Source of the DNA: Variimorphobacter saccharofermentans
GTDB taxonomy: Bacteria > Bacillota > Clostridia > Lachnospirales > Lachnospiraceae
DNA length: 64,000 nt
Assembly: GCF_014174405.1 (NCBI RefSeq)
Contig: NZ_JACEGA010000001.1
Location: 301,001-365,000, forward strand
Reading direction: 5' to 3'
Shown: positions 7,079 through 28,304 of the stretch, in pieces
How the letters are laid out: each line of letters starts with the position of its first letter
How positions within the stretch are numbered: the first letter of the stretch is position 1
Notes under the pieces: generated by a model
What the model saw: the letters and a program-made list of their open reading frames with translations, nothing else
Told to the model about the DNA's origin: nothing
Databases searched by the model: none
Position numbers and translations under genes: made by a program

Positions 7079-7133
7079 GTTGAGAAGAGCCTGAAGGAAC
7101 TTTTAAAACATCGCAAGGTTGTGCGAAAGTTTC

Positions 7134-7161: not shown

Positions 7162-7208
7162 GTTTAATAGAATTTTGTTATTTTTTGATGCATGATGGAG
7201 GGCATATT

Positions 7209-7412: not shown

Positions 7413-7651
7413 GTCCAGATTTTTGGACAGCATGTTTTGTAAAATCTATAAGGCAGAGATATTACTAGCAGAATCAGCTTTTTAGTTGGATGATTAGTAG
7501 AACGAGAGGAAAATGTTTATTTCGAATAATGAGATGTAAGACAGATTTTGTGATGGAGAGTATTTGCCTGGAGCGTTTCGGACACGCAAAACCTTAAAAA
7601 TTAATGATTCTTTGAAGCTTAAAAATTAGTAGTTATGATTGGAGGAAAGCA

Positions 7652-9823: not shown

Positions 9824-9869
9824 AGTGGCGTAATTTGATTGGAGGTACATGAAGTAGAAAGTAGGCAGT

Positions 9870-10439: not shown

Positions 10440-10570
10440 TGTGGAAAAATGATAAGGATGGAGTTTGCGGCGGACAGATATTAATACTGAATTATATAAG
10501 TATTGAAGAAGATAAATGTAAGAAATTATTGAATGAACTTATGAAAAATGGCATGTCTGATTTTGCATAG
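10439..10570 (+). CDS. 43-aa ORF overlapping the membrane gene stop
   Basis: The sequence TAATG joins the stop of the membrane protein gene to an ATG that opens a 43-codon frame, the classic arrangement for translational coupling. The peptide (start MWKNDKDGVCGGQILILNY, then a charged amphipathic helix) is hydrophilic with one short hydrophobic core and two cysteines. It ends 21 bp before the large NTPase gene. No family recognised; it may be a real microprotein or chance. Confidence 0.4.
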   Translation: MWKNDKDGVCGGQILILNYISIEEDKCKKLLNELMKNGMSDFA

Positions 10571-10591
10571 GAACATATAGGGAGGTATTGT

Positions 10592-13500: not shown

Positions 13501-14332
13501 AATATATTGTATAGCCACTAGAATTATTTTAAAAAAGCAAGAGTATAGTAATTTCATGGTACGAATGTATTTTGAATGGTTGTTCAATGACCATGTGTGG
13601 AAACCGGAAGAGTTAATGTGTAAATTTTCCGATGATATTGAATTATTGAAGGAAGTATATTTATGTACAATAAGATTAGATTCGCACACAGATTATGATG
13701 GTGAATTTATTAAGTATTTTATAAGTGTTGATAATTCTTGGGTTCAGTTATATGCAGAGTATATTAATGAAAATGAAGATAGGTCATATTTGTATGAACA
13801 TGATAGAATTTTGGCATGCTGGGAATTGGATAACTATATGAATATATTTGATTACTTGTTTGATTTTGTTGTAGAAAAGAATGAATATTATAGGTGGAGA
13901 GCCAAAGAAGAATTTAAAAATTTGCTTGTACATGAGCAGGGAAAAGATTTAAGAAATGAAAGAAAAGAAGAATGGGTATTACAAACAGTAGAGAGATATA
14001 ATGATGATAACAAAAAAATGATAGCTTTGTTTCAGGCATTGTCGGAATTGGGTACAGGTATCCGTGAAAAGGCTATAGTAAAGTTTGTTCAGTATAATAA
14101 AGATTATGAAATCTTTACTAAGTTATCATTAGAACCTAATCATTGGGGCGGGACCGGAAGCATGGTGCCTTGTATGCAAGGACGAGTCAAATTTTATGAG
14201 TCTCTGCTGCCTTATTTTACTGGTGTTGATTTACTTAAACATAAACAGTATATACAAGAGAATATACGAAGATGGAAGAGAATGATTGAGCAACAAGAGA
14301 TACAGGAGCTAATGGAGTCATTGTATTTTTAA
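10592..14332 (+). CDS. Large nuclease-like/STAND-like NTPase (Avs-like architecture)
   Basis: The 1246-aa protein begins with a restriction-endonuclease-like domain (about 12-140): the helix GGAFQELCDALLARKGY, then GNPD (50-53) and the strand YIFVAYTTQK (63-72). A P-loop NTPase follows, with Walker A GKAGVGKT (210-217), Walker B KYLFLIDDAN (258-267) and a sensor-like IISTLRDY. The remaining 850 residues are long helical repeats without cysteines or membrane segments. Nuclease-NTPase-helical repeat is the layout of bacterial NLR-like (Avs/STAND) phage sensors. The assignment is by architecture only. The expected acidic residue in the E-x-K position appears to be Ala68, so nuclease activity is uncertain. 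AGGGAGG precedes the ATG. Confidence 0.75.
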   Translation: MSRITDIKAKINVLEGGAFQELCDALLARKGYEGIHAYGMQAGTMKTTKGNPDTYFKSKNGKYIFVAYTTQKDNLFEKAKDDIEKCLNPEKTGIQEKDIEEIIFCHTSSNLSAGEDKELKDICAQKGILFDIYGIDRIADEIYRKYKILAKDHLGMSIDTNQILEQRDFIDRYDSNEMMAPLSTTFQFRKDEYEEMMSFLLQKKVVVVVGKAGVGKTRLSLEVAKDFGNKFGYKVFCIKSMDLSISEDVAAYMDKAGKYLFLIDDANELVGLKYVLEYTNMENMGYDIKIISTLRDYTAAGVVNQIRQYTEPHILNVVPFTDEQIKEFLNVNMEIRNGDYVDAIIRIAEGNPRIAYMAGRLAKAEQSLSAINDATQLYESYYTKFLVSSAITTDRDLCLAASVISLLHTINLSDIKPLESLLDKLNMNQELFLKMIYRLCEDEFVEIKLDKVATISDQCLRNYMLYYAFCKKRIVPYSELLEIGFRSFRNGIVKATSILWNIFSSSEVHDYLSSEIEKVWDIYKEEGGEIFYEFVKYFHDFRFEEVLLIVKDRIEAVDADKINIDEIDFSKDKYHTEDAIIEMLSGYCNRTLLPEAVELMCEYVEKKQSAIDTVMQCIKTNYSIDKNAYRYDYFTVNMIVEGVKKKRNSPIITKLFMGISNHFLEVLYRPAESGRGKTITMYTIPIILTEGCKKYRGSIWKELILLSEEAYWEKDIRNILEKYAEGWYDEVEKDVFEFDKEYIVKLVDKLWKKNKIRYCVLCKKLKKKWKHYGIDSADEFNVVFECEEWKIYNVFSDKRWETELSYEEAEEQREFEIRTYAKSLTEEDITNLVEKVNQITFELEREKYEIVHGLEIIVDELSSDKDKLCHFAKVFVEKGDCIELHPYSLIKNLIAQYGSEYVYNLIWNKEFVQKNRWQFELFEILPKEEINSSWLERLIKFFQDDGDKEIKSSPYRDLRFLDNFIEFEPKIYCIATRIILKKQEYSNFMVRMYFEWLFNDHVWKPEELMCKFSDDIELLKEVYLCTIRLDSHTDYDGEFIKYFISVDNSWVQLYAEYINENEDRSYLYEHDRILACWELDNYMNIFDYLFDFVVEKNEYYRWRAKEEFKNLLVHEQGKDLRNERKEEWVLQTVERYNDDNKKMIALFQALSELGTGIREKAIVKFVQYNKDYEIFTKLSLEPNHWGGTGSMVPCMQGRVKFYESLLPYFTGVDLLKHKQYIQENIRRWKRMIEQQEIQELMESLYF

Positions 14333-14371
14333 GAGTATACACATGAGAGTGTGCTATAAGGAGGGTTTGAA

Positions 14372-14674
14372 ATGCTAAATCTGGTGGTTTTTGAAACAGA
14401 AGAGGAACTCTGTGAGTTAACAGGGCTGACAGAACATGAACTGTGGCAAAAAGGTTTTAATCTTGATGATTGGGAGATTGGTTTTCAATCTGAAGTTAAA
14501 TTGCATAAGACACCGACGAAAAAAGATATAGAGAATGGATATCGGGAGAATGAATTAATTGCGTTATTTGATTTGCCGGCACATTGGTTGATGAATCAAA
14601 TGAACAGTTACTGTGTTGGTGCAAATTATGTTTTTCTGGATGGGAAACATTACTATACAGTTCATCACGCATAA
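14372..14674 (+). CDS. Hypothetical 100-aa protein
   Basis: It begins 39 bp after the large NTPase behind a strong AAGGAGGG site. The sequence is acidic and tryptophan-rich in its first half (TEHELWQKGFNLDDWEIGF) and ends HYYTVHHA. It has no signal peptide or membrane span. I do not recognise the family. Its position in the cargo operon suggests an accessory or regulatory partner of the neighbouring nuclease or NTPase. Confidence 0.65.
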   Translation: MLNLVVFETEEELCELTGLTEHELWQKGFNLDDWEIGFQSEVKLHKTPTKKDIENGYRENELIALFDLPAHWLMNQMNSYCVGANYVFLDGKHYYTVHHA

Positions 14675-14700
14675 AGTGTTTTGGTATAGATGCCGGTGTT

Positions 14701-14726
14701 AAAAATGGCGACGTGTCGCCATTTTT
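14701..14726 (+). terminator. Perfect 12-bp palindromic hairpin before the DUF1016 gene
   Basis: AAAAATGGCGAC, a 2-base centre and GTCGCCATTTTT form a perfect inverted repeat. It resembles a bidirectional terminator, but it stands only five bases before the AAAGGAG site of the next gene. It may therefore attenuate the DUF1016 gene or be an operator. A similar GCGAC-3-GTCGC palindrome lies within that gene at 15046-15058. Confidence 0.55.
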
Positions 14727-14742
14727 GAGAAAGGAGAATGAA

Positions 14743-15789
14743 ATGTCTGAGGAATTAATGAATATCGCAGATGTTGAGAGTGTTTTTAGTGATATATCTA
14801 CAATGATTTATACTGCTAAAAATGAAGTTATGATGCGAGTAAATACATCAGTTATTTCGTTGTATTGGAATATAGGGAAGAAGTTATCTGAAGAAGTTTT
14901 GCAAGGAAAAAAGGCTGAATATGGAAAAAATATAATTGGTGATTTGAGTGAGAGACTAACGGTCGAATACGGAAAAGGTTTTGAAAAATCATCAGTTTTT
15001 AAAATGGTAAAATTTTACCAGGAATTTCCGGAATATGAAAAAGTGGCGACACTGTCGCAACAATTGACATGGTCTCATTTTGTAGAACTGTTACCGATTG
15101 AAGATGAATTAAAAAGGGATTTTTATGCTGCCATGTGTAAAAATGAAAATTGGTCAGTAAGAACTTTGCGTGAACGAAAAAAATCAATGTTATATGAACG
15201 CACTGCTGTATCTAAGTTACCGGAAGAAACCATAGCAAACGAGATTGCAGAGCTAAGAGATGACAAGAAAATGTCATTAGATATGTTTTACAGAGATCCA
15301 TATATGTTAGATTTTCTTGGCTTAAAAGATACGTATAGTGAAAAAGATTTAGAAAATGCTATTTTGTCGGAATTGGAAAAATTCATTTTGGAAATGGGTT
15401 CAGATTTTGCGTTTCTGGCACGTCAGAAACACATCGTTTTAGATGGAAAAGACTACTATATGGATTTATTGTTCTATCACCGAACATTGCGGAGATTGGT
15501 ATTGATAGAATTAAAACTTGGCGAGTTTGAACCTCAAGATAAGGGGCAGACAGAGTTATATCTTCGTTGGCTTGAAAAATATGAGAAAGCCGAAGGAGAA
15601 GAAAGCCCGGTAGCATTAATTTTATGTGCAGAAAAATCACAAGAAACGATTGAATTAATGGAATTAGATCATGGAAGTATACATGTGGGGCAGTATTTAA
15701 CGAAAATGCCACCTAAAGAGTTATTGGAGAAAAAGTTGTCGTTGGCAATTGCTAATGCAAGGGAACAGTTAGAACAGCGGAAAGAATAG
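14743..15789 (+). CDS. DUF1016 (YhcG-type) PD-(D/E)XK nuclease
   Basis: This 348-aa protein has the two-part DUF1016 architecture. The helical N-terminal DNA-binding part shows the family signature TLSQQLTWSHFVELLP. The C-terminal PD-(D/E)XK nuclease core runs from about 230 to 330, with DLLFYHRTLRRLVLIELKLG (Asp...Glu-x-Lys). The start is ATG 14743 after GAAAGGAGAATG; a longer frame from 14584 would overlap the upstream gene. Members occur in type I restriction loci and mobile islands and are viewed as DNA nucleases. The exact role here is unknown. Confidence 0.85.
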   Translation: MSEELMNIADVESVFSDISTMIYTAKNEVMMRVNTSVISLYWNIGKKLSEEVLQGKKAEYGKNIIGDLSERLTVEYGKGFEKSSVFKMVKFYQEFPEYEKVATLSQQLTWSHFVELLPIEDELKRDFYAAMCKNENWSVRTLRERKKSMLYERTAVSKLPEETIANEIAELRDDKKMSLDMFYRDPYMLDFLGLKDTYSEKDLENAILSELEKFILEMGSDFAFLARQKHIVLDGKDYYMDLLFYHRTLRRLVLIELKLGEFEPQDKGQTELYLRWLEKYEKAEGEESPVALILCAEKSQETIELMELDHGSIHVGQYLTKMPPKELLEKKLSLAIANAREQLEQRKE

Positions 15790-15797
15790 GATATGCT

Positions 15798-15833
15798 ATA
15801 GATGGTACTTTAATTTCAGAAAGTACCATCTAT
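15798..15833 (+). terminator. Hairpin after the DUF1016 gene
   Basis: ATAGATGGTACTTT pairs perfectly with AAAGTACCATCTAT across an 8-base loop. The following sequence is only A/T-rich (TAATATATTC), not a clean T-run, so termination may be partial. Confidence 0.6.
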
Positions 15834-15883
15834 TAATATATTCAAATCGGTTTGCACAATATGAAGAAAGGCAGGCAAGGGTA

Positions 15884-15936
15884 ATGGATTATAAAGCATT
15901 AAATGAGAACCAAAGAAAAAGAATGTTACAGATAAG
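15884..15936 (+). pseudogene. 5' fragment of the NACHT-like NTPase gene, cut off by IS66
   Basis: The ATG at 15884 opens a frame (MDYKALNENQRKRMLQ...) that runs into IS66 at 15937. Deleting the IS and one 8-bp duplication (CAGATAAG) fuses this frame exactly in phase with the large ORF at 18586, giving MLQISKNDFSMEWENPD across the joint. So this is the true N-terminus (17 codons plus two bases) of the gene continued at 18586-21933. A weak AAGGCAGG-type ribosome site lies upstream. Confidence 0.85.
15929..15936. repeat. IS66 target duplication, left copy
   Basis: CAGATAAG here is repeated at 18586-18593, immediately after the other end of the element. Eight-base duplications are typical of the IS66 family. 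Confidence 0.95.
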
Positions 15937-16060
15937 GTAAACGGTAAATCTCTTGTACATTAAAAAATAAAATCACATATGGGATAATACTCTAAGTTGA
16001 ATAAGTTGAAAAAGTTGACAACATTTTAAACTTTTCAAACAATCTTAGGAGGTTATCTTC

Positions 16061-16417
16061 ATGAATGCAAAAAATATGAAAAAGGAATATAACTTAAAGC
16101 AATGGCATCTTATAATTCAAGACTGCCGTAACAGTGGCATGAAAGTAGACGACTGGTGTAAACAAAACGATGTTAATCGTAATTCATACTATTATTGGTA
16201 TAAAAAGATTCGTGAAGCTGCATGTGAAGTTTTAACCGAAAGCAATGTAGCCGTATCACCTTCCTTTGCATCTGTTCCTATGAATGTAATTGAACCTATC
16301 AATAATGGAAATCAAGGGTCACTAAACATATCTATTGGTAAAGTTAAAATAGAAGTTACAGAGAACACTTCACCTGATATACTACGTATGGTGCTGGAGG
16401 TACTTTCTAATGCTTAA
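16061..16417 (+). CDS. tnpA: IS66 accessory protein TnpA
   Basis: The 118-aa protein has the family N-terminal helix-turn-helix pattern (LKQWHLIIQDCRNSGMKVDD then NRNSYYYWYKKI). It is the first of three IS66 genes, needed with TnpB for transposition though its biochemical role is unclear. TTAGGAGG precedes the ATG. Its end overlaps tnpB by 8 bp, implying coupled translation. Confidence 0.9.
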   Translation: MNAKNMKKEYNLKQWHLIIQDCRNSGMKVDDWCKQNDVNRNSYYYWYKKIREAACEVLTESNVAVSPSFASVPMNVIEPINNGNQGSLNISIGKVKIEVTENTSPDILRMVLEVLSNA

Positions 16418-16769
16418 TGATGCTACAGGTTTTAAGGCTGTATATATCGCCTGTGGTTATACCGACCTGCGGCGTGGTATAGATGGTTTATCTGTTATTA
16501 TTGATAAAACCTTTCATCTAAATCCTTTTGAGTCTGGTACCTTATTTCTCTTTTGCGGAAGGAGAACTGATCGTATCAAGGGACTTTTATGGGAGGGAGA
16601 TGGTTTTCTATTGCTCTACAAACGCCTTGAAAATGGCAAGTTCCAATGGCCAAGAAATGAAGATGAAGTGCGTCAAATGACATCACAACAATTTCGTTGG
16701 TTGATGGAAGGACTATCAGTAGAGCCAAAAAAAGTTGTCCACACAGTCAAACCAAAACGGACTGCATAG
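16410..16769 (+). CDS. tnpB: IS66 accessory protein TnpB
   Basis: The 119-aa protein carries the strongly conserved IS66 Orf2 signatures YIACGYTDLRRGIDGL, FLFCGRRTDRIKGLLWEGDGF and LLYKRLENGKFQWP. It overlaps the tnpA stop. TnpB is required for transposition, with unknown catalytic role. A 129-bp gap with no strong ribosome site separates it from tnpC. Confidence 0.93.
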   Translation: MLNDATGFKAVYIACGYTDLRRGIDGLSVIIDKTFHLNPFESGTLFLFCGRRTDRIKGLLWEGDGFLLLYKRLENGKFQWPRNEDEVRQMTSQQFRWLMEGLSVEPKKVVHTVKPKRTA

Positions 16770-16898
16770 GGCTATAATTAGTGGATAAAGTTTCTCCATA
16801 AAGCCCTGATTTTACTCGGTTTCGCTATGTTTTCCACAACTTTTAAAAGTTGTTTCAAATCTCTTTACATGCAGTTTTTATTATGCTATGTTTGACAC

Positions 16899-18527
16899 AT
16901 GATGATAGAAAACTATAGTGTAAACCAATTAACTAAATATACTAAGAAAGAGATCATAGATCTTTTTCTAAATCAGCAAGAGAGCCTAAAACTCCTTCGT
17001 GGGGAAATGGAGCTGCTAAACAAAAACATGAATCTATTATTAGAGCAGCTAAAGGTCTCCAATCAAGCAAGGTTTGGAAGTTCCTCTGAAAAGATTGATA
17101 TAGAGATTTCAGAACAACTTCAATTATGTTTTAACGAAGCAGAGGTTACCATTGCTACTGCAGGAGAGATTGCAGAGCCAACAATAGAGCAAGTAGTGTC
17201 TGGGCATACACGTCGTGTAAAACCCCAAGGGAAACGAGATGCGGATTTGGAGGGGTTACCTATTCGTGTGGAGGAACACTTTCTTTCAGAGGAGAAGCTA
17301 CAGGAACTTTTCGGTGGTAGCTATCGTAGGCTACCTGATGAAGTTTATAAAAAACTTGATTTTCATCCTGCAACCTTTGAAGTTGTAGAACATCACGTAG
17401 CCGTGTATTGCGGTAATAAAAATCAGACAATCGTACGGGCAGATCGTCCTTCAGAGCTATTGAAAAATAGCATTGTTACACCTTCGCTTCTTGCTGCAGT
17501 ATTAAATGCTAAATATATAAACTCCCTACCTTTGTATCGTCTTGAGCAGGAATTTAAAAGGTATGATGTAAATATCTCAAGACAGGTAATGTCTAACTGG
17601 GTCATTACTGGAAGTGAACGATATTTATCGCTTCTTTATGACCGGATGCATGATGAGCTTTATAAAAGTCATGTGCTTCATGCAGATGAAACCCCATTTA
17701 AGGTAACAAAGGATGGACGTGATACCATGACCAATAGTTACATGTGGGTATATCGCTCTGGTAAGGATGGTGGAGGGCCCCCAGCAATCCTATATGAGTA
17801 TCAGAAAACTCGTAAATCAGATCATCCTGCACAGTTCTTAAAGGAGTTCCAGGGCGTAGTGGTTTGTGATGGTTATCAAAGCTATCATAAGATAGCCAAT
17901 GAGCGGCCTGATGAACTGAAAGTGGCAGGATGCTGGACTCATGCGAGAAGACGCTTCGCCCAGCTATGCAAAGCCCTTGGCAAAGAGAAAGCCAAAGGAA
18001 CTCTAGCAGAAGCTGCAGTTGGTCAGATAGCAGCTATCTACCATGTGGATAATAGCCTATCAGATCTTAAACAAGATGAAAAACTACGTGAACGACAACT
18101 TCATGTCAAGCCTTTAGTAGAGGCCTTCTTTACGTGGGTAAAAGCCAATAGGCATACAGTTCCTGAAAAATCTGAAACAGGAAAAGCTTTTACTTATTGC
18201 ATAAATCAAGAACAGTACCTACGTACTTTTCTAGAGGATCCAACAGTGCCCCTGGATAATAATTCTGCTGAAATAGCAATTCGCAGTTTTTGCGTTGGTA
18301 AACATAATTGGCACCTGATAGATACTATAAATGGAGCAAAGGCAAGCGCAATTGTGTACAGTATTGCAGAAACCGCAAAGGCAAACAACTTAAAACCTTA
18401 TAATTATTTTAAATTTATCTTAGAAGAGATTCCTAAGTATGTAGATGGAAAGGATACAAAGTTCCTAGAAGACCTACTTCCATGGTCTCCAAATCTTCCA
18501 GATGAATGCAAAAAACAAAGTAATTAA
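16899..18527 (+). CDS. tnpC: IS66 DDE transposase TnpC
   Basis: The 542-aa protein has an N-terminal leucine-rich coiled coil (residues 20-60), the RFGSSSEK motif, and a DDE catalytic domain with Asp in HADETPF, Asp in VVCDGYQSYH and Glu in DNNSAEIAIRSF. Unlike the copy at 23638, the usual CxxC zinc-binding segment between coiled coil and core is missing; only one Cys (YCGNKN) remains. The frame is intact. Confidence 0.93.
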   Translation: MMIENYSVNQLTKYTKKEIIDLFLNQQESLKLLRGEMELLNKNMNLLLEQLKVSNQARFGSSSEKIDIEISEQLQLCFNEAEVTIATAGEIAEPTIEQVVSGHTRRVKPQGKRDADLEGLPIRVEEHFLSEEKLQELFGGSYRRLPDEVYKKLDFHPATFEVVEHHVAVYCGNKNQTIVRADRPSELLKNSIVTPSLLAAVLNAKYINSLPLYRLEQEFKRYDVNISRQVMSNWVITGSERYLSLLYDRMHDELYKSHVLHADETPFKVTKDGRDTMTNSYMWVYRSGKDGGGPPAILYEYQKTRKSDHPAQFLKEFQGVVVCDGYQSYHKIANERPDELKVAGCWTHARRRFAQLCKALGKEKAKGTLAEAAVGQIAAIYHVDNSLSDLKQDEKLRERQLHVKPLVEAFFTWVKANRHTVPEKSETGKAFTYCINQEQYLRTFLEDPTVPLDNNSAEIAIRSFCVGKHNWHLIDTINGAKASAIVYSIAETAKANNLKPYNYFKFILEEIPKYVDGKDTKFLEDLLPWSPNLPDECKKQSN

Positions 18528-18530
18528 TAA

Positions 18531-18552
18531 CTAGCCACCACAAGGTGGCTAG
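18531..18552 (+). terminator. Hairpin after tnpC of IS66 copy 1
   Basis: CTAGCCACC, loop ACAA, GGTGGCTAG form a perfect 9-bp stem between the tnpC stop and the right IS end. No long T-run follows, so it may instead block read-in from outside. Confidence 0.5.
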
Positions 18553-18558
18553 AATTTC

Positions 18559-21500
18559 ATGATAGACAAGTGGTTTACCGTTTACCAGATAAGTAAAAAT
18601 GATTTTTCGATGGAATGGGAAAATCCTGATTTCCTTGATGCACTTATTGGAAAACTTCCTCCCATACATCACGACCGAAATGAGGAAAATATTAAAACGG
18701 AACTTGCCGAATTAAACAAGTATTATTCTCAATTTGATTTTTTCGCAACTGATAGAGCTAAATTTATTCAAGAAATAAAAGTATTAATTAATGATATACA
18801 TAATAAAAATGCGAATTGGTACGGTCTTGATTTATATAGAGTAGAAGAATGCATTCGGCAGCAGGAGTTTTGTTTGATTTCTGGAGAAGGTGGAATAGGA
18901 AAAAGTTATTTTATTAAATGTCTTGAAGAAGAATTTGAACGTAATGGTATTCCGCATTTGTGTATCTATGGAAAATTTGAAAAGAATTTGCAGAATGTTG
19001 ATGTCAACGAAGTTGCCGGAGTAGGTGAAAAAGGTTTTGTATTTATTGTAGATGCAATAAATGAAATGTCCGAAAAGGGGCAATTAGAGCTATTGAATGT
19101 ACTTCGGAATTTAGTTCATCTTTCTAAAATAAGAATTATATTGACATACCGAACAAATGCTATGGATAATCAGATCCTTGAGGAATATAAGGAAATGGCA
19201 AAGGCTGAGTATGCTTTCCCTGGGGTTTCTTTTGAATCTGCATTGAATGAACTCTTAAAGATGTCAGTTCCAGATGTTTACAAATATGAAGATATTCTAT
19301 TTTCGAATAATGCATTATTATTGAATATGCTTTGCAGAGCACTCAGTGATGAAAAACTAATAGAGGAAAAGGTAAATAGCGTAGCTTCTATTACCTTTAT
19401 TTTAGAATATTATATAAAAAATTCCATAAAGAAAACCTTTAAGGGGGAGATTTCATCCACAGATCCTATTGAAATTTGGAAAGATATTAAAAGAGTAGCC
19501 AAATGGATGTATGAACAAGATGTTAAAGAAATTGATAAAGAAAATTTGCTTCTAGTTATTAAATCGGGCGATGTCTTTATACGTATTTTAAGACAAGCAG
19601 GGATTGTAGGCGAGTACGATTATGACGACAGACATTATTATTTCTTTGCCATTGATTCGTTAACTGATTTTTTGATTGCACGTTCGTTATTTGAAGATAT
19701 TACGGGAAAAGCATTTGATGAGCAGGTGAGAATTATATCACAAAAGACCGGCAAGCTCTATAATATGGAGGAAGCTGTGATTTTGGCTATATTTGATAAT
19801 CTGGCACCGGATTATGAGTATATTGCTAAATTGTTAAAAGAAACAAAATTAATGGATTCATTGCAATATGAAACGCTTGTTAAAATCAACTTTAGCAAAG
19901 AAAATATTGTTAAATTTATTACAGCATTTGAACCCATCGAGAAAAATAGCTTGATTACTATATTTGGAGGTTATACAGATAAGCCATTCAATTGTGTGAA
20001 TTATTTAAACTCATACTATACAGTAGAAAAAAATCAGTTAAGAGAGTTATCTTTAGCCTTATCCGGGACACACTTTCTGGGACGAGTGAAGGGAAGACTA
20101 AAAAACATTATATATTTTCTTACACTTCATAATGGCAAGGATAGAAGAGTGGAGGAAGCTTTTTATTATGCATTGTGGTGTTGCGCAGCACCAAACAAAG
20201 ATGTACGTTGTCTTGCAATGAAATTATTATATGAAGTAGTAAGACAGAATACGGAATATAAAAGTGTTCTGATTGATATGTATGAAAGTATTGTAGACCC
20301 ATACATAAAGGAGTCAATAATTTATGTTTTAGTAAATCATCTACAAGATGACGAAGAAATATTGAGCTTCTTTAAGAATTTAATAATAGGTGAAACATAT
20401 TTATTAGCAAGAAGTATTAAAAGAATAGCGGTTTATTTGCATGATGATTATGGTTATATAAAGTGGGATAGAGAAAATTTGTATGATTTGAATAATGCTG
20501 TGCCTATATCAGATTCGTTAAATGATATTTTCTTTAGCGTAGATCTTATGAATAAAGATTTTTTACCATTCCGGTATTGGTCGAAGGAACATATTGATAT
20601 GCATACACGTTTTTTGCAGGTAGACAAGCAGGATATTTTTAAGTTAAATCATTTTTTAGAAGAAAAGTTCCTATGCGTAAAAACGGGAGAGTGTAATGGC
20701 TTGATGTCTTTTGAGAATCATATTAAATCTGAGTATAATATTGATTTGCGAAAACAAGTGCTGGATAATAATGCGTTTTTTGCTTCCTTCGAATCGGTTA
20801 TTAAAGAAATATTCTCTCTATTTCAAGAACCATATGATGAAATTGAACGAATTGGAGGAGAAGAGGAGTTTCAAAATTCAATATTTATGAAGTGTGTTGA
20901 TGTTGCTATCGGTATTTACTATGGGAGCCTTATGTGTAACTACTTTACAAATGAGTTTGCAACATATAATAATTATCAAAACAGTATTGGGTATGAAGTA
21001 TATGATCCTATTGAATATGGCGAGGATGTGTATATAGCAACTCCGGTGCCGACATATCAAGATTATATTGAAAAGTTGGGGGATATGGTTATTAATCGAA
21101 TCGATTTGCCGGAAAAGAAAGACTTGGCGTGGGTAAGGGATGTGTCAAATACTCGTAGAAATTTAGTATCACTTTTTGAAGCGGTTGAGATCAAAGGTGT
21201 TGAGTGGGTTTTGCTCGCGGGAAGAGTTTCTTTGCATGAAGACTCTAAAAAGGAGACAAGGTGGAAAGATACATATGATATATGGTGCTGTACATCGGAA
21301 AAAGAAACTATACATGAAAATGGTGGGGCAAGGTATCTTACGATAGAATTGGAAGATTATGCTGGAAATTTAGGTGATTATAAGAAGTGTGATTCAAAAC
21401 CGTGGTTATGTAAAGATGTAAAAAATATAAATTATCATTCAGAAATATTTGATAATACTTCCTTAGTGCTTCCGCCAGCAGAACTGATATGTTATTTTCA

Positions 21501-21933
21501 ACTGACTCCAGTTTATGCTAATATGTCGTGGATTAATTCGGCTGGTGAAGTTGTAATATTCTGTAATAACAATAAAAATTCGTACTACACAGATCCTATT
21601 GGTGGTACGGTCTTTATAAGAAAAGATTATTTAGATGAGTATAGGAAAGGACATATTTTAAAGTATTTTGCATTTACAGAAAGGTTCATTCCAGAAACTG
21701 GTTATGCAGATGAAACATCGTTGTATTTTGAAATCCAAAATGGTGTTATTATCAAGGAAATATTAAATAATGGTGGAGGATCTCATCGGGCGGCGGAGAC
21801 TAATCCATTGTGTGCGAATTGTCCACACGGTTTCAATCAGAAGTTGTCAAATAACAATAGTGACCTAAATGAAATGATAGAAATAATTTTGAGGGAGGGT
21901 TACGCTTCATGGGAAGAAGATGAAATTAACTGA
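18559..21933 (+). CDS. NACHT-like NTPase, 5' end replaced by IS66 sequence
   Basis: The open frame of 1124 codons now begins with nine residues read from the IS66 right end (MIDKWFTVY); authentic sequence starts at codon 10 (18586). The intact gene, starting at 15884, would encode about 1130 aa. A helical N-terminal region (to about 100) precedes a P-loop with Walker A GEGGIGKS (109-116), Walker B FVFIVDAINEM (160-170, the Asp-x-x-x-Glu form typical of NACHT) and RIILTYRT. About 900 residues of helical repeats and an unrecognised beta-rich C-terminus follow. The ATG at 18559 has no good ribosome site, so expression is doubtful. It is probably a STAND-class immune ATPase. Confidence 0.75.
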   Translation: MIDKWFTVYQISKNDFSMEWENPDFLDALIGKLPPIHHDRNEENIKTELAELNKYYSQFDFFATDRAKFIQEIKVLINDIHNKNANWYGLDLYRVEECIRQQEFCLISGEGGIGKSYFIKCLEEEFERNGIPHLCIYGKFEKNLQNVDVNEVAGVGEKGFVFIVDAINEMSEKGQLELLNVLRNLVHLSKIRIILTYRTNAMDNQILEEYKEMAKAEYAFPGVSFESALNELLKMSVPDVYKYEDILFSNNALLLNMLCRALSDEKLIEEKVNSVASITFILEYYIKNSIKKTFKGEISSTDPIEIWKDIKRVAKWMYEQDVKEIDKENLLLVIKSGDVFIRILRQAGIVGEYDYDDRHYYFFAIDSLTDFLIARSLFEDITGKAFDEQVRIISQKTGKLYNMEEAVILAIFDNLAPDYEYIAKLLKETKLMDSLQYETLVKINFSKENIVKFITAFEPIEKNSLITIFGGYTDKPFNCVNYLNSYYTVEKNQLRELSLALSGTHFLGRVKGRLKNIIYFLTLHNGKDRRVEEAFYYALWCCAAPNKDVRCLAMKLLYEVVRQNTEYKSVLIDMYESIVDPYIKESIIYVLVNHLQDDEEILSFFKNLIIGETYLLARSIKRIAVYLHDDYGYIKWDRENLYDLNNAVPISDSLNDIFFSVDLMNKDFLPFRYWSKEHIDMHTRFLQVDKQDIFKLNHFLEEKFLCVKTGECNGLMSFENHIKSEYNIDLRKQVLDNNAFFASFESVIKEIFSLFQEPYDEIERIGGEEEFQNSIFMKCVDVAIGIYYGSLMCNYFTNEFATYNNYQNSIGYEVYDPIEYGEDVYIATPVPTYQDYIEKLGDMVINRIDLPEKKDLAWVRDVSNTRRNLVSLFEAVEIKGVEWVLLAGRVSLHEDSKKETRWKDTYDIWCCTSEKETIHENGGARYLTIELEDYAGNLGDYKKCDSKPWLCKDVKNINYHSEIFDNTSLVLPPAELICYFQLTPVYANMSWINSAGEVVIFCNNNKNSYYTDPIGGTVFIRKDYLDEYRKGHILKYFAFTERFIPETGYADETSLYFEIQNGVIIKEILNNGGGSHRAAETNPLCANCPHGFNQKLSNNNSDLNEMIEIILREGYASWEEDEIN
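18586..18593. repeat. IS66 target duplication, right copy
   Basis: CAGATAAG, identical to 15929-15936, directly follows the right IS66 terminal repeat and is in the reading frame of the interrupted NTPase (Gln-Ile-Ser). Confidence 0.95.
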
Positions 21934-22352
21934 AAGACAAGGAGGGTAAGTGAAATATATTAAGGAGATACAGTGTGTTTCATGTCCCTCTATCCCTCCT
22001 TTCTCGTTCGACCACCTAGCTTCAAATAAGCCGTGATACATCTGCGAACTCGCCCCCCGTTCGACCACCTACCCACTAATCAACGAAGGTCGAACGAATT
22101 TTAGATGAATTTTGTAAAGAATCATTTTACATTCCAGTTCGCCCATGCTACAATATCCCCAGGTGGACGAAAACGGTGTCGTTCGGGCGCGGACAAAAGG
22201 GCGTGATACACAGGGAAACTTCCCGAATCCGTGATACGAATCTGCAACATTTCCCCCAGAAAAAGCAAAAATAATAGGTAAAATACCCATAAAATGAGTC
22301 AAAAAACGGCAAAAACCGTAACAAATAAGTTTCTAAATACGACCAAATCAGA
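21934..22352. other. Non-coding right end of the island
   Basis: These 419 bp hold no gene. They contain three GTGATAC heptamers (22033-22039, 22203-22209, 22231-22237) matching those at the left end. They also contain a 14-bp direct repeat CGTTCGACCACCTA (22005-22018, 22058-22071) and a near-inverted copy of its core, AGGTCGAACG (22087-22096). Dense short repeats next to an attachment site fit integrase/Xis accessory binding; this is inference. Confidence 0.55.
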
Positions 22353-22408
22353 CCGTGAGGGTGGTAGAACCGTTGGTTCAGGTAAAGTAGCTACAATTAT
22401 TGAGTAAT
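22353..22408 (+). repeat. Right attachment site (attR), copy of the tuf 3' end
   Basis: This 56-bp sequence is identical to 3921-3976. It encodes the last 18 codons of EF-Tu and the stop but is detached from the gene by the island. It is followed by a tuf-type terminator at 22433-22466. Confidence 0.92.
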
Positions 22409-22432
22409 TTGATATTTCATTAATATAATGAT

Positions 22433-22466
22433 AAAACGCAACTCTAATTATGGAGTTGCGTTTTTT
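22433..22466 (+). terminator. Former tuf terminator after attR
   Basis: AAAACGCAACTC and GAGTTGCGTTTT make a perfect 12-bp stem with an 8-base loop, followed by a T-rich tail. It stood directly behind tuf before the island inserted and is now orphaned. Confidence 0.85.
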
Positions 22467-22578
22467 ATCGGATAGAAATTTATCCGAAATTATCCATAAA
22501 TACGCTCCTTAAGAGGTTTTCGTATTATGTTCTTCTGGATAGGTTAAACCGTATAGTATGAATCGTTATAAATGTTAA

Positions 22579-22607
22579 TTGTAAAGTTAGACAGTAATGT
22601 ATATAAT
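22579..22607 (+). promoter_or_regulatory. Promoter of the hydrolase gene, now cut off by IS66
   Basis: TTGTAA (22579-22584), a 17-bp spacer and TATAAT (22602-22607) are followed by AAAAAGGAGAAG (22657-22668) and a GTG (22675). This is a complete start region whose coding sequence resumes beyond the IS at 25250. Confidence 0.6.
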
Positions 22608-22674
22608 ATACACATCTATGCTTAACTTCAAATATACTAGTTTCTATTGTAAATAAAAAAAGGAGAAGAATAGT

Positions 22675-22702
22675 GTGAAAAAAATTGGAGTGCAGTTGAT
22701 GA
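22675..22702 (+). pseudogene. Original 5' end of the hydrolase gene, separated by IS66
   Basis: From GTG 22675, behind a good AGGAG site, the frame reads VKKIGVQL-Met and then hits the IS at 22703. Removing the IS and one GTTGATGA duplication joins it in phase with the hydrolase at 25254. The native start was therefore this GTG, or the ATG at 22699, which has a weaker GGAG site. Confidence 0.7.
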
Positions 22703-22825
22703 GTAAGCGCTCGACAATAGAGTGCCTATTCTATTTTAGAGATCCATGTGATAATAACTCTAAATATTGAGTTAAAGTTTTTCAAGTTTTTCAACTTGAA
22801 AAACTTTAGAAAGGAGTTGTGAAAC

Positions 22826-23185
22826 ATGGATGAAGTTACCTATGTAAAAACAAAGTTCCGTCAAGAACAATGGGAAAAACTAATTGAGGACTGTCAAAAC
22901 AGTGGGCTTAAGGTTGACGACTGGTGCCAGAAAAATCATATCAGCCGTCACGCTTATTACTATTGGCTTCGTAAGATACGTAAAAAAGCATGTGAAGCTA
23001 TTCTACCCGCAATACCTAAGCAAGATTCACAAGTTGAGTTTGCCAAGTTTGAAATAGAAGCACAGCAAACCAATCTTATGGCATCAGTCATTATCCATCT
23101 TCCATCTGCTACACTTGAAGTACATAATGGAGCAAGCGGGCAGACTATTGAAGCAGTGCTTCTAGCACTGAAAAATATATGCTAG
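22826..23185 (+). CDS. tnpA: IS66 accessory protein TnpA
   Basis: The 119-aa protein has the same N-terminal pattern as copy 1 (REQWEKLIEDCQNSGLKVDDW, then SRHAYYYWLRKIRKKACEA). GAAAGGAG precedes the ATG. Its stop overlaps the start of tnpB by 7 bp. Confidence 0.9.
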   Translation: MDEVTYVKTKFRQEQWEKLIEDCQNSGLKVDDWCQKNHISRHAYYYWLRKIRKKACEAILPAIPKQDSQVEFAKFEIEAQQTNLMASVIIHLPSATLEVHNGASGQTIEAVLLALKNIC

Positions 23186-23535
23186 GCGATATTACTGTAG
23201 CTAAGAACATCTACATTGCCTGTGGCTACACAGATATGCGTAAATCAATTGATGGACTAGCTGCAGTGGTACAAGAACAGTTCCATCTAGATCCTTTTTC
23301 AAAGAGTCTCTTTCTTTTCTGCGGTAAACGCCGGGATAGGCTCAAGGCACTCCTTTGGGAAGGAGATGGATTTGTTCTTCTTTATAAAAGATTAGAGAGC
23401 GGAAATTTCAAATGGCCTCGTAGTCAAGATGAGGTAAAACTCCTTACCTGGCAGGAATTTCGCTGGTTAATGGAGGGACTTTCTATCGACCAACCAAAGG
23501 CTATTAAGACTGTCAAACAGGGTGCTTTTTGTTAA
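23179..23535 (+). CDS. tnpB: IS66 accessory protein TnpB
   Basis: The 118-aa protein carries the IS66 Orf2 signatures YIACGYTDMRKSIDGL, FCGKRRDRLKALLWEGDGF and LLYKRLESGNFKWP. It is translated from an ATG inside the end of tnpA. The tnpB-tnpC gap contains TTTTATGGTATAATAA, a possible promoter for tnpC. Confidence 0.93.
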   Translation: MLGDITVAKNIYIACGYTDMRKSIDGLAAVVQEQFHLDPFSKSLFLFCGKRRDRLKALLWEGDGFVLLYKRLESGNFKWPRSQDEVKLLTWQEFRWLMEGLSIDQPKAIKTVKQGAFC

Positions 23536-23637
23536 GTGGAAAGTGACTGAAAGTATTGATTTTACTAGCCTTTTAGCTGTTTTTATGGTATAATAAACCT
23601 ATCAAGTTTAGAATATATGGTAGGAGAAAAACCACTG

Positions 23638-25176
23638 ATGAATAATAAAGATGCTTACATTGAACAGCTCGAAAATACAATAAAAAAGTTACAACTACAA
23701 GTAGATAATCTTACGGAGATGATACTAATACTTCGGAAGGAAAAGTTCGGTTCATCCAGTGAAAAAACTCCTAAGGATGATATTGAAGGACAACTACATT
23801 TGTTCAATGAGGCAGAAGCTTATTCTGATTCTCCTGATCCAGAACCTATAACCAAAGAAGTAAAGGGTTACACCCGGACTCATACAAAGACAAAGAGAGT
23901 AGAAATTATAAAAGATCTTCCTGTCCGTGAAATCCTGTGTGAGATTCCTATAGAGGATCAGTACTGTATTCAGTGTGGGAATAATCTAAAACCAATCGGT
24001 AAGGAAACGGTTCGTGAGGAGCTGGAGTACATACCTGCTAAACTACGTATTGTTCGTTATGTCCGAATGGCTTATGAATGTCCTAAGTGTAAACATACCG
24101 ACAAACCCTATATAGAAAAGGCACCTACACCGACATCTTTAATGAACCATTCACTTGCATCACCAAGTTCTGTAGCCAACGTAATGTATCAGAAATACGT
24201 GAATAGCATGCCACTTTATCGCCAGGAAAAGGACTGGGAGAATCTCGGTATTGCCTTAAAACGTAGCACTATGGCTAACTGGATTATACGTTGCTCCCAA
24301 GATTATTTCTATCCTGTAATCCAGTACTTAAGGAAGAAGCTACTAGAAAGGGATATCATTCATTGCGATGAAACACCTATCCAAGTACTGAAGGAGGATG
24401 GTAAAAAACCTCAGACGAAGTCCTACATGTGGCTTTATCGCTCTGGTAATGACGGGAAAGCTCCCATCATCTTGTATGATTACAGACCAACAAGAAACGG
24501 TGATAATCCAGTCGAATACCTAAAGGGGTTCAGAGGATATCTTCATACCGATGGATACGGTGGATATAACAAGCTTGAAGTTATCCGGTGCGGTTGTTGG
24601 GCTCACCTTCGAAGGAAGTTCATAGAGGCTATTCCTGGAAAGAAGGCAAAGAATGCCCCACCTACCAATGCAGAAATCGGAAGGGACTACTGCAATAAGC
24701 TCTTCCTTATAGAGGAAAGTCTTAAGGAACTGTCCCCTGAAGTTAGATATACTAAGCGTCTTGAACTGGAACGCCCAGTCCTTGATGCCTTTTGGTGCTG
24801 GCTTGAAAACCTTACGGTATTAAATGGCTCTGCTCTAGGTAAAGCTGTAACGTATGCAAAGAATCAGAAGCCATATATGGAGAATTATCTTCTTGATGGA
24901 AGATGCTCCATTTCAAACAATACAGCAGAAAACAGCATACGTCCATTCTGTATTGGCCGTAAAAACTGGCTATTTTCAGATACACCGAAAGGAGCTGAAG
25001 CAAGTGCTGCAGTATATAGCATAGTCGAAACAGCAAAAGCAAACGGACTTAATGTATATACATATCTAGAATACTTATTATTGTATATGCCTGATACGGA
25101 TTATCATAATCACCCAGAAGATCTGAAATTTTTGATGCCTTGGTCAGAGGCAGTACAAGCAGAGTGTGGTAAGTGA
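23638..25176 (+). CDS. tnpC: IS66 DDE transposase TnpC with zinc motif
   Basis: The 512-aa transposase has an N-terminal coiled coil (YIEQLENTIKKLQLQ), the KFGSSSEKTP motif, zinc-type CIQCG and CPKCK pairs, and a DDE core with HCDETP, HTDGYGGYN and NNTAENSIRPFCIG. The start ATG 23638 is 11 bp behind AGGAG; a GTG/ATG seven codons earlier is possible. It is intact. Confidence 0.93.
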   Translation: MNNKDAYIEQLENTIKKLQLQVDNLTEMILILRKEKFGSSSEKTPKDDIEGQLHLFNEAEAYSDSPDPEPITKEVKGYTRTHTKTKRVEIIKDLPVREILCEIPIEDQYCIQCGNNLKPIGKETVREELEYIPAKLRIVRYVRMAYECPKCKHTDKPYIEKAPTPTSLMNHSLASPSSVANVMYQKYVNSMPLYRQEKDWENLGIALKRSTMANWIIRCSQDYFYPVIQYLRKKLLERDIIHCDETPIQVLKEDGKKPQTKSYMWLYRSGNDGKAPIILYDYRPTRNGDNPVEYLKGFRGYLHTDGYGGYNKLEVIRCGCWAHLRRKFIEAIPGKKAKNAPPTNAEIGRDYCNKLFLIEESLKELSPEVRYTKRLELERPVLDAFWCWLENLTVLNGSALGKAVTYAKNQKPYMENYLLDGRCSISNNTAENSIRPFCIGRKNWLFSDTPKGAEASAAVYSIVETAKANGLNVYTYLEYLLLYMPDTDYHNHPEDLKFLMPWSEAVQAECGK

Positions 25177-25182
25177 TTATTT

Positions 25183-25216
25183 GAGACTGACTAATTATCA
25201 TAGTCGGTCTCTTTCT
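25183..25216 (+). terminator. Terminator of IS66 copy 2
   Basis: GAGACTGACT and AGTCGGTCTC (one G-U pair) form a stem followed by TTTCTT, between the tnpC stop and the right IS end. Confidence 0.65.
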
Positions 25217-25253
25217 TATTTACAAGGCACCCTGTTGTTAACCGCTTACGTTG

Positions 25254-26300
25254 ATGAAAATTGTTAAATGGATTTTGATTGTTTTGATTTCAGTTATTGT
25301 ACTATTTTTTATAGTACGTTTTATCGGACAGAAGATAAATGCTAGAACGCCTGAAGGTGGAATTAATGAATCAATGTATGTTGATATCAATGGAACGAAG
25401 CAATGGATTAGTATATATGGAGAAGACATAAACAATCCTGTTCTATTGTATTTGCATGGTGGACCGGGTACATCAACGAGTACTTATGACTATGCTTTCA
25501 CGAGAAAATGGGCTGATGTATACACTGTTGTTACCTGGGACCAAAGAAACTGTGGTAAGAGTTATTCTGAGGAGCAAAATGATGTAGTAATAACTTATAA
25601 CCTGATGATGACTGACGGTGTTGAGATGACAGAATTTATTCTAAAGTATTTAGGAAAGGATAAGCTCACGCTTCTTGGTCATTCATGGGGGACAGTATAC
25701 GGGGCGAATCTTGCGCTTGAATATCCTCAGTACTATGATTGCTTTATTGGTACAGGACAGTTTGTAAATCTCCATGATAATGAGGTTACTTTCAAAGAAG
25801 CAGCAAAAACTTGGGTTGGTGATGATGAAGAAGGCAAAAAACTGATAGATCGTTTGACAATAGATGATTTTTCGCTGGATTACTTTGATGCTAGAAATAC
25901 CTTAATGTCTAAATACGGATACGACATTTTCGCAGATGGAACCGATTACAATTTAGTATTGACACAGATTCTTAATCCATATTATTCGATATCGGAGTTC
26001 ATTTCTTTTATGAATTCGGATTCTTCCCAATACATGAACTTTGTCAATACGGAGGAATTTGCAAAATTCTGGATAACAGATAGAAACGTATACCGGATAC
26101 CATACTACAACATTAATGGGGATAAAGATTATCAGACAAATTACATATTGGCTCAGGAATACTTCGATACGGTTGAAGCTCCATTCAAAAAAATGTATAT
26201 CATGAAGGATACCACGCATGGATTGCTAGAATCAAAATCAAATGAATTTTCTGAGATTTTACATGAAATATATGAAATAGAAAAAGAAAGAGACAGGTAA
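25254..26300 (+). CDS. Membrane-anchored alpha/beta hydrolase, proline iminopeptidase-like
   Basis: The protein of about 348 aa has an N-terminal signal anchor (residues 4-25, IVKWILIVLISVIVLFFIV) and an extracellular alpha/beta hydrolase domain. That domain shows oxyanion motif HGGPG, WDQRNCGKS, nucleophile elbow GHSWG and a late His in DTTHG. This pattern is that of S33 prolyl aminopeptidases and related hydrolases; the substrate is unknown. IS66 copy 2 now lies between its promoter region and this ATG, so expression may be lost or driven from the IS. The stop codon TAA lies inside a decayed copy of the tuf attachment core (26294-26314). Confidence 0.85.
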   Translation: MKIVKWILIVLISVIVLFFIVRFIGQKINARTPEGGINESMYVDINGTKQWISIYGEDINNPVLLYLHGGPGTSTSTYDYAFTRKWADVYTVVTWDQRNCGKSYSEEQNDVVITYNLMMTDGVEMTEFILKYLGKDKLTLLGHSWGTVYGANLALEYPQYYDCFIGTGQFVNLHDNEVTFKEAAKTWVGDDEEGKKLIDRLTIDDFSLDYFDARNTLMSKYGYDIFADGTDYNLVLTQILNPYYSISEFISFMNSDSSQYMNFVNTEEFAKFWITDRNVYRIPYYNINGDKDYQTNYILAQEYFDTVEAPFKKMYIMKDTTHGLLESKSNEFSEILHEIYEIEKERDR

Positions 26301-26314
26301 AATAGCTACAATTA
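26294..26314 (+). repeat. Third, decayed tuf attachment core
   Basis: These 21 bp match tuf positions 3947-3967 at 20 of 21 bases (CAGGTAAA, A for G, then TAGCTACAATTA). They are followed, like the other two copies, by a GAGTTGC-type terminator. Upstream the similarity stops abruptly in the hydrolase coding sequence, as at a recombination junction. Confidence 0.7.
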
Positions 26315-26340
26315 ATTCTGAACGAAACTCATACTATCAT

Positions 26341-26384
26341 AAATTGAAAAAGCAGCTCCTGTTATAGAGTTGCTTTTTCAATTT
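26341..26384. terminator. Bidirectional terminator, probably the oldest tuf terminator
   Basis: AAATTGAAAAAGCA pairs with TGCTTTTTCAATTT (26341-26354 and 26371-26384) around an inner CTCC...AGAG. T-runs are present on both strands, so it serves the hydrolase side and the minus-strand gene at 26434. It resembles the two upstream tuf terminators. Confidence 0.8.
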
Positions 26385-26433
26385 ATCTTGTAAACTGATA
26401 AATAACATTTAATATGCTGTCAGGATATACAGA

Positions 26434-26943
26434 TTATATCTTATTATGCATTAAATCATATGGAATTTTGATTTGATAGAAGACTTGAAATAGGAAACGT
26501 AACACGAAGGCGCAGGCAAGAATTATGACTGGGCTTCGAGAAAGAATACCATTCTCCTGTGGCGACATATAATAACTATATTGCCATAAAATAAGAAATA
26601 GAATGCAAATGAAAAAAGAGATCGTGTTTGAGAAGCTTCGTAATGGTGTGTATTTATATTTACGTACTATTTGATTGAGTTGGAAATCCTTTTTATCTAT
26701 GTGAATAGATAATTGAGATTCGGGATGTTTTTTTATATAATCCTTTACGACATTGCTAATAAAAATGGGCATAATATTATATATAATAAATATATACATG
26801 GGTATTAGGGCATAAGCTTTATAAAACAGATAAATAGAGATAATCAAAAGAGACAAGTTTATCATATATTTTGTTAATATCAGTGCTCTATGTACAGATA
26901 CGGATCGAATCTCTTGCTTCATTGTGAATGCGGTATTAGTCAT
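26434..26943 (-). CDS. Hypothetical membrane protein
   Basis: The 169-aa protein has four likely membrane segments: about residues 24-42, 45-65, 105-125 and 137-157. A basic hydrophilic loop lies between the second and third. AAAGGAG on the minus strand precedes the ATG at 26943. No family recognised. It marks the return to chromosomal sequence after the tuf-linked insertions. The 371-bp gap to its right holds the mbl promoter. Confidence 0.7.
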   Translation of the reverse strand: MTNTAFTMKQEIRSVSVHRALILTKYMINLSLLIISIYLFYKAYALIPMYIFIIYNIMPIFISNVVKDYIKKHPESQLSIHIDKKDFQLNQIVRKYKYTPLRSFSNTISFFICILFLILWQYSYYMSPQENGILSRSPVIILACAFVLRFLFQVFYQIKIPYDLMHNKI

Positions 26944-27120
26944 GTGATTACTCCTTTTGTGAGGACATTAATAAATTTTATTTATCATTATAGTATATTT
27001 ACAGGCAGTACTCAATATCTTTTGTATGTGGACAACAATAAAGTCATTATGCAATATCCATCATAAAATGTGCGGAATTTGTTAAAATATTGCGATATAT
27101 GAAAGTTTTTAAAATTTCCT

Positions 27121-27157
27121 TTGAAAAATACGGAAATTACGTATATAATATATACGT
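27121..27157 (+). promoter_or_regulatory. Promoter with palindrome over the -10, before mbl
   Basis: TTGAAA (27121-27126), a 17-bp spacer and TATAAT (27144-27149) form a near-consensus promoter. The -10 is embedded in a 19-bp palindrome, ACGTATATA-A-TATATACGT (27139-27157), a candidate operator. A leader of about 160 bp follows before the gene. Confidence 0.65.
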
Positions 27158-27314
27158 GTATGTTTAAGTTGCCGAAGTTTGGAAGAAAATATAGAGGAAA
27201 ATGAATTATAGATGAGATGTGTAGGACCTATTGGTCTCATCTTCATATAAGAACATAAACCCTAGAAGGATGCTAATTCATGCAGAAGCATGAGGGAAAG
27301 GAGTTATAGAATAT

Positions 27315-28304
27315 ATGTTAGGTAGTGATATCGGAATTGATTTGGGAACGGCTAGTGTGTTAGTTTATATAAAGGGAAAAGGAGTCGTATTAAAAGAACC
27401 ATCGGTTGTTGCATTTGACAGAGATTCGAATAAGATTAAAGCCATTGGTGAGGAAGCAAGACTGATGCTGGGAAGAACACCGGGTAATATTGTTGCTGTA
27501 CGTCCGTTAAGACAGGGTGTAATTTCAGACTATACTGTAACGGAGAAGATGTTAAAGTACTTCATCCAAAAGGCAGTTGGTAAGTCAAGATTTCGTAAAC
27601 CTAGAATAAGCATCTGTGTACCCAGCCAGGTAACAGAGGTAGAGAAAAAAGCAGTTGAGGATGCAACCTATGCTGCAGGTGCAAGAGAAGTGGCAATCAT
27701 TGAAGAACCTATTGCTGCAGCGATTGGTGCGGGTATAGATATATCAAGACCCTGTGGTAATATGATAGTGGATATCGGTGGAGGTACTACTGATATTGCA
27801 GTTATTTCCCTAGGAGGAACTGTTGTAAGTACTTCAGTTAAGATTGCAGGTGACGACTTTGATGATGCAATAGTTCGTTATATGAGAAAGAAACACAATC
27901 TTCTGATTGGTGAAAGAACAGCAGAGGATATTAAGATAAAAATTGGATCTGCATACCGTAGACCGGAATCGGTATCTATGGAAGTAAGAGGTCGTAATTT
28001 GGTTACTGGTCTTCCTAAGACAATAGCGGTAACTTCAGAGGAGACGGAAGAGGCATTGAAAGAAACCACTTCTCAGATTGTGGAAGCGGTTCATAGTGTA
28101 TTGGAGAAAACTCCTCCGGAGCTTGCTGCGGATATTGCTGACAGAGGAATCGTTCTGACCGGTGGCGGATGTCTGTTATATGGATTAGAAGAATTAATTG
28201 AAGAGAAAACAGGAATTACGACTATGACTGCAGAGGATCCGATGACGGCAGTAGCAATTGGAACTGGAAAGTTTGTTGAGTTCTTATCTGGTAAAAGAGA
28301 CTAA
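27315..28304 (+). CDS. mbl: Actin-like rod-shape protein, MreB/Mbl family
   Basis: The 329-aa protein has MreB-type actin fold motifs: phosphate 1 loop DIGIDLGTASVLVY, IEEPIAAAIGAG, phosphate 2 loop MIVDIGGGTTDIAVIS and adenosine loop VLTGGGCLLYGL. MreB proteins polymerise on the inner membrane face to guide cell-wall synthesis. It is followed by two flagellar rod/hook genes, the arrangement of mbl in Bacillus (mbl-flhO-flhP), which favours Mbl over MreB; no mreCD is present. AAAGGAG lies 12 bp upstream. Confidence 0.88.
   Translation: MLGSDIGIDLGTASVLVYIKGKGVVLKEPSVVAFDRDSNKIKAIGEEARLMLGRTPGNIVAVRPLRQGVISDYTVTEKMLKYFIQKAVGKSRFRKPRISICVPSQVTEVEKKAVEDATYAAGAREVAIIEEPIAAAIGAGIDISRPCGNMIVDIGGGTTDIAVISLGGTVVSTSVKIAGDDFDDAIVRYMRKKHNLLIGERTAEDIKIKIGSAYRRPESVSMEVRGRNLVTGLPKTIAVTSEETEEALKETTSQIVEAVHSVLEKTPPELAADIADRGIVLTGGGCLLYGLEELIEEKTGITTMTAEDPMTAVAIGTGKFVEFLSGKRD

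Follow-up and report, generated by a model that had tools for sequence, protein, structure and literature searches.

We analyzed a window of 64,000 nucleotides from Variimorphobacter saccharofermentans (Lachnospiraceae; NCBI RefSeq assembly GCF_014174405.1, contig NZ_JACEGA010000001.1, positions 301,001 to 365,000 of the forward strand), in which the 3' end of tuf, the gene for EF-Tu, is present three times: in tuf itself, at 22353-22408 and at 26294-26314. The outermost copy, hereafter the third core, is truncated and closes a short segment with a single alpha/beta hydrolase gene, which is separated from tuf by a newer defence island. On balance, we favor the reading that the third core is the remnant of the original tuf 3' end, left behind after the insertion of an older element that has since eroded. 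Read in this way, two insertions of different age are stacked at a single housekeeping gene, and the locus illustrates the decay of an attachment (att) site.

The target gene (2782-3975, + strand; identified from its ORF, with the tuf genes of relatives 86-96% identical) ends in a 56-base core at 3921-3976 that is repeated at 22353-22408 with 56/56 bases identical. The third core corresponds to positions 27-47 of these 56 bases and lacks the left 26 bases together with the tuf stop codon; it matches at 20/21 bases, with one change. Aligned on this 21-base part, the three cores start at 3947, 22379 and 26294 with 0, 0 and 1 mismatches. An initial annotation of this DNA had already reported the third core, and the statistics bear it out: zero matches to the 21-base core were found in 100 shuffles of the window, and the third core scores 37, whereas 300 shuffled versions of 25258-27314 reached at most 26 and the reverse strand 18. 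Searching the whole genome (4.16 Mb) with a 19-base core, GGTAAARTAGCTACAATTA, in which R covers the single base differing in the third core, gave exact matches at 3 of the 11 listed sites, which are the three known copies; the remaining listed sites have 2 mismatches (one site) or 3 mismatches (seven sites). With up to 3 mismatches allowed, 10 sites matched the reversed pattern, which served as a control.

The stop codon of the hydrolase gene (26298-26300) lies within the third core, as first noted, and the 21-base match could in principle be a coincidence in the 3' end of that gene. The match is short and stands at a gene end of variable length: 9 residues follow the HEI residues here, compared with 2-11 in 52 of the 53 homologs measured and 29 in one. 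Window shuffles, scored shuffles and the whole-genome core search nevertheless rule out chance for all practical purposes, and the match stands exactly at the expected native tuf end. The initial annotation had named this coincidence as a way in which its reading could fail, and the homologs speak against it. We examined the best 80 of 144 hydrolase homolog loci in named genomes, with flanks of up to 10 kb, some of them cut by contig ends, and none has a core-like match at the gene end; matches with at most 4 mismatches lie elsewhere in these loci (L081, L097, L099), and the core was accordingly rejected as a regular feature of the hydrolase gene end. We therefore regard coincidence as exceedingly improbable. 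The C-terminus is of ordinary length, which places the joint with the core at the end of the gene. Microhomology at this joint was considered by eye and is not claimed.

The surroundings of the third core were compared with those of tuf in a genus set of 33 relatives, with loci examined in 30, of which 26 carry tuf and mreB on one contig and 4 are cut by contig ends. Gene order is tuf-(orf169)-mreB in 26/26, with orf169 in between in 12 of them. In the window, mreB (27315-28304, + strand; PF06723) is preceded by orf169 (26434-26943, - strand), and the third core, together with the inverted repeat that follows it, stands about 110 bases before orf169 when measured from the missing tuf stop. The corresponding gap is 74-383 bases in 10 of the 12 relatives and 1210 and 6345 bases in G029 and G031. 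Because the third core is located just before orf169 and mreB, the genes that follow tuf in relatives, it is by position the original tuf end, displaced by the DNA now in between, and something must therefore have been inserted behind tuf. Beyond the tuf stop, conservation between these species is lost, so an identity check of the displaced end is impossible and the evidence is positional. The inverted repeat 3' of the third core (26339-26386, + strand; arms 26339-26358/26367-26386, 95% complementary) would by its position be the native tuf terminator. The tuf-like terminator first described at this place is present as a repeat, though one that a consensus terminator scan did not report. Another inverted repeat, 3' of the second core (22433-22464, + strand), looks terminator-like by eye and is likewise absent from the list of that scan.

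The newer island occupies about 18.4 kb (3977-22352, + strand; Pfam, PADLOC) between the left core in tuf (attL) and the second core (attR), and it carries a tyrosine integrase (PF00589, 5087-6247). Relatives of this integrase (48-50% identical) adjoin tuf in three family genomes, G081, G085 and G175. A collection of further tuf cores from family genomes comprised 19 entries; three of these (L231, L268, L280) proved to be genuine tuf ends and were dropped, leaving 16 extra cores in 14 genomes. These loci (L158-L171, L292) were selected by core match and give no measure of prevalence. In 16/16 extra cores the tuf-like part starts at (C)RTGARGG, and the sequence to its left is unlike. To the right of the motif, the two ends differ from each other within G163, G085 and G175, as expected if strands exchanged near (C)RTGARGG, and we infer that crossover takes place at this motif. 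The third core starts instead at CAGG, directly behind the hydrolase codons; both (C)RTGARGG and the conserved right end of the island (22226-22352, + strand), which precedes the second core, are missing. Since the third core has neither, the island integrase should not use it, and it is presumably dead for recombination.

This result bears on the central proposal of the initial annotation, namely tandem accretion of a small cassette comparable to a cis-mobilizable element (CIME). In a true cassette of this kind, the island integrase would move the hydrolase segment by recombining the second and third cores. A single gene without integrase and with cores on both sides is what such a cassette would look like, and cis-mobilization of such tandems has been published (PMC5704250, in the text available to us). 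The third core, however, lacks the crossover sequence present in 16/16 extra cores as well as the right end of the island, and the cargo gene is broken by an IS66-family insertion sequence; we thus rejected a CIME with working att sites and consider such a cassette highly improbable. What stands of the proposal is accretion in the broad sense, with a displaced tuf end and a newer island in between, and, of the two att-type sites without an integrase, the intact left one and the lack of the integrase. The right copy is presumably unusable, and the segment has the appearance of a fossil and not of a mobile cassette.

The comparison with published systems leads to a similar picture. According to the accessible parts of PMC7563491 and PMC5704250, CIMEs measure 1.2-13 kb and keep their att sites, and gene-free microCIMEs measure 130-220 bp. 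Without the IS66 element and one target duplication (2555 bp), the segment 22353-26314 comes to about 1.4 kb, as first calculated; this falls within the range given for CIMEs in the consulted portion of PMC7563491, and the small size is therefore not notable as had been thought. As in a CIME, integration and transfer genes are lost, only the hydrolase and IS66 lying between the second and third cores. Of the att sites, the left (22353-22408) is intact, whereas the right, reduced to positions 27-47 of 56, has no crossover sequence. Like the Streptococcus CIMEs in the sections of these two papers open to us, the segment is decayed, carries a cargo gene but no integrase, and lies distal to a more recently integrated element at a housekeeping gene 3' end. 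Unlike them, it shows no usable right att site, its target is tuf, and its neighbor is a defence island with no relaxase seen among the proteins scanned. Judged from its sequence, the segment thus resembles in placing and working the end state of a CIME tandem and departs from it in the right att site. It shares the target site and the core with the tuf-integrase islands of the family (G085, G175, G081, G073 and others), and the newer island also shares their right end; their extra cores start at (C)RTGARGG, whereas the third core does not. As to an origin from an integrative and conjugative element (ICE) or an integrative and mobilizable element, no element remnant was found beyond the core, and a flank search in 396 genomes was uninformative.

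The history that we favor would run as follows. An older insertion, most likely of an earlier element targeting the tuf 3' end, would have brought in the hydrolase gene, together with another tuf end and a terminator-like repeat, ahead of the old end. This insertion would then have eroded down to one gene, and the crossover sequence would have gone with the left half of the right att site. The defence island with its tyrosine integrase would have integrated later at the intact tuf end, creating the perfect 56-base att sites. At some point, IS66 would have inserted into the hydrolase gene. Both the integrase origin of the older insertion and its priority over the island are deductions. The history as a whole is supported by the contrast between the newer att pair (56/56 identical) and the third copy, which is truncated and carries one change, by the score of the third core far above chance at the place given by the native gene order in 26/26 relatives, and by the recurrence of tuf-targeting elements in the family (14 genomes, with integrases beside tuf in G081, G085 and G175). 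Moreover, tandem sites and core erosion both occur in the family. G073 (L167) has tandem att sites behind tuf at 5549-5601 and 8330-8385, the outer one decayed and with the same element end, so that its second core lies 2.7 kb beyond attR; in G101 (L171) the core is eroded to its left 38 bases. Finally, in published tandems decay is greatest in the element most distant from the target gene (PMC7563491, as far as its text could be consulted).

Several points weigh against an eroded element. Its right end, crossover sequence and integrase are all missing, and the older element is thus deduced from the core copy alone. Across the 396 other family genomes, relatives of the flank 22409-22702 reach no more than about 53 bases once the core is discounted, and in the same search no informative match was found that would make it an element left end. 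Extra DNA behind tuf is present in 6 of the 26 relatives (G001, G007, G016, G029, G031, G033), and because five of these six (all except G029) show no tuf-tail copy, insertions behind tuf need no att recombination. All comparisons are with other species and genomes, none of them a strain of the same species. Erosion, in addition, is required to have stopped inside the core twice, here and in G029. In this relative (L147, 2609-2641, - strand) a lone HAD-hydrolase gene behind tuf is closed by a decayed tuf-tail copy (28/33) that scores 41, a value reached by 0 of 300 shuffles (maximum 26), and that is also without the (C)RTGARGG part; an inverted-repeat-like stretch and then orf169 follow. It is the one clear case in a scan between tuf and mreB of the 26 relatives, the other 25 scoring 13-23, each below its own shuffle maximum. 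Of 34 genus genomes searched for the HAD gene (E 1e-40), G029 was the only one to yield it, and none was found elsewhere in 298 loci. To the left of the G029 copy, CAAAATCAG was noticed by eye as a possible trace of an element end and is a candidate only.

The truncated shape in both species would be explained more directly by homology-anchored illegitimate recombination. Here, a linear DNA with a tuf 3' end and the hydrolase gene would be anchored by homology in tuf and joined illegitimately within the last 30 bases of tuf, with no integrase; the new gene would then be followed by a tuf tail truncated at its 5' end. Such a truncated copy follows directly from the process, which also predicts the shape seen in G029 (28/33, 41 against 26), and five relatives took up other genes behind tuf without cores. 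Homology-facilitated illegitimate recombination is known from three competent species and, as a low-frequency event, from conjugation in E. coli, and a truncated copy of the anchor gene beside the new gene is predicted there (PMC3240628, from the part of the paper at hand); the corresponding donor and joint sequence were not identified here. Indeed, tuf is near the hydrolase in 0 of the best 80 of 144 homolog loci. Furthermore, a joint could lie anywhere in tuf, yet the starts of both scars fall no more than 37 bases from the tuf stop. We regard this route as possible, at a clearly lower probability than an eroded element.

A different recombinase could also make tiny single-gene insertions by crossing over within the final 20-30 bases of tuf. 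Lone enzyme genes (an alpha/beta hydrolase and a HAD hydrolase) closed by 3'-half copies of tuf do occur in two species of the genus, but no recombinase is attached to either gene and no further clear short copy was found in 90 family loci searched up to 6 kb downstream of tuf, which makes this origin decidedly unlikely. The one clear copy in those loci, in G073, is of the ordinary full-length kind with an element end; borderline scores are 30 against 23 (60 shuffles) in L250, 29 against 24 in L282 and 29 against 29 in L277, the best reverse-strand score being 26. A more general proposal, that the tuf 3' end in this genus accepts very small single-gene insertions leaving a 20-33-base tuf-tail scar, independently for the two hydrolases, through a site-specific enzyme in trans or homology-anchored joining, appears rather doubtful to us. 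If true, it would be a compact, integrase-free way to add one gene behind a highly expressed housekeeping gene.

The hydrolase gene at the center of the segment is itself interrupted. The IS66-family element (22703-25249, + strand; Pfam) is bordered by an 8-base target duplication, GTTGATGA, at 22695-22702 and 25250-25257, and its 1580-base right part has 100% copies at four other places in the genome. It splits the gene after codon 8, severing the upstream region and first codons from the rest: the 5' piece (22675-22702, + strand) consists of a GTG start and about 8-9 codons, with a similar N-terminus in L067, and the remainder (25254-26300, + strand) matches PF00561 (E 1.3e-16). Consistently, an in-frame start precedes the position of the window ATG at 25254 in 77 of the 80 homologs, most often by 8 codons (27/80). 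A gene with its own promoter, as first described, is not what we find. Besides the severed upstream region, the promoter-like match at 22579-22607 (TTGTAA-17-TATAAT) is one of 15 found against 14.1 in shuffles and, because such matches are equally frequent there, is no evidence of a promoter. A terminator-like stem at 25183-25211 lies within IS66 just before the gene; such sites are no commoner than in shuffles. Upstream of the hydrolase and of mreB, 22599-22628 and 27141-27170 share 25/30 bases around a TATAAT-like sequence.

As the absence of tuf near the homologs implies, the case that the initial annotation had set against itself, a hydrolase downstream of tuf with neither island nor core, did not occur in those 80 loci. 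The closest named relative is from Acetivibrio mesophilus (88% identical), and relatives at E 1e-80 or better are present in 6 of the 396 other family genomes. A plasmid collection contained two distant hydrolases (34-42%), and the segment had no DNA match in a phage collection. An IMG/VR contig (L300, 1393-2466) carries a hydrolase relative (58%) among phage head genes (names read from ORFs), as if it were a phage cargo gene.

Turning to the newer island, its integrase and 56-bp att pair are features of an ICE, the kind of element beside which, according to the initial annotation, such cassettes occur in streptococci. An assignment of the island to the ICEs was not substantiated: no relaxase or conjugation genes were found in a scan of a 61-aa ORF and of 11 of the 15 island ORFs with 100 aa or more (6124-6573(-), 6664-6996, 12574-12879(-) and 15383-15712(-) lay outside the scan). 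The integrase gene is preceded by an HTH regulator (4178-4675, - strand) and a small HTH protein (4857-5042), which may by its position be excisionase-like. The cargo (7652-21933) is rich in defence-type genes, with a GmrSD-type nuclease (7652-9823), an nSTAND protein (10592-14332), a DUF1016/YhcG nuclease (PADLOC PDC-S02, 14584-15789) and an ATPase with a weak Avs2 match (18559-21933; E 4.9e-6, 22.6 bits); IS66 genes lie at 16061-18527. More broadly, the locus suggests that in this family islands of defence type repeatedly integrate at the tuf 3' end, and within a 120-genome sample an extra core starting at the attR point was present in at least 13 of 119 other genomes. In our literature search, which covered few subscription papers, no description of tuf in this role was found. 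The integrase has no relative in IMG/VR.

The right end of the island, with the adjoining core (22226-22409), matches MT838322.1 (L301) at 93.5% identity over 184 bases, and similar ends are present in L161 and L171. MT838322.1 is a human faecal virome scaffold deposited as a bacteriophage, with the island right end and tuf core at 5181-5364; because it carries both, it is probably a fragment of a bacterial island. It also carries a large type I methylase-like ORF (read from the ORF, with no family search). In G085 (L159, below 2641) and G143 (L165, after 9384), the sequence following attR resembles by eye the left end of another element, which suggests further tandem elements at these two loci.

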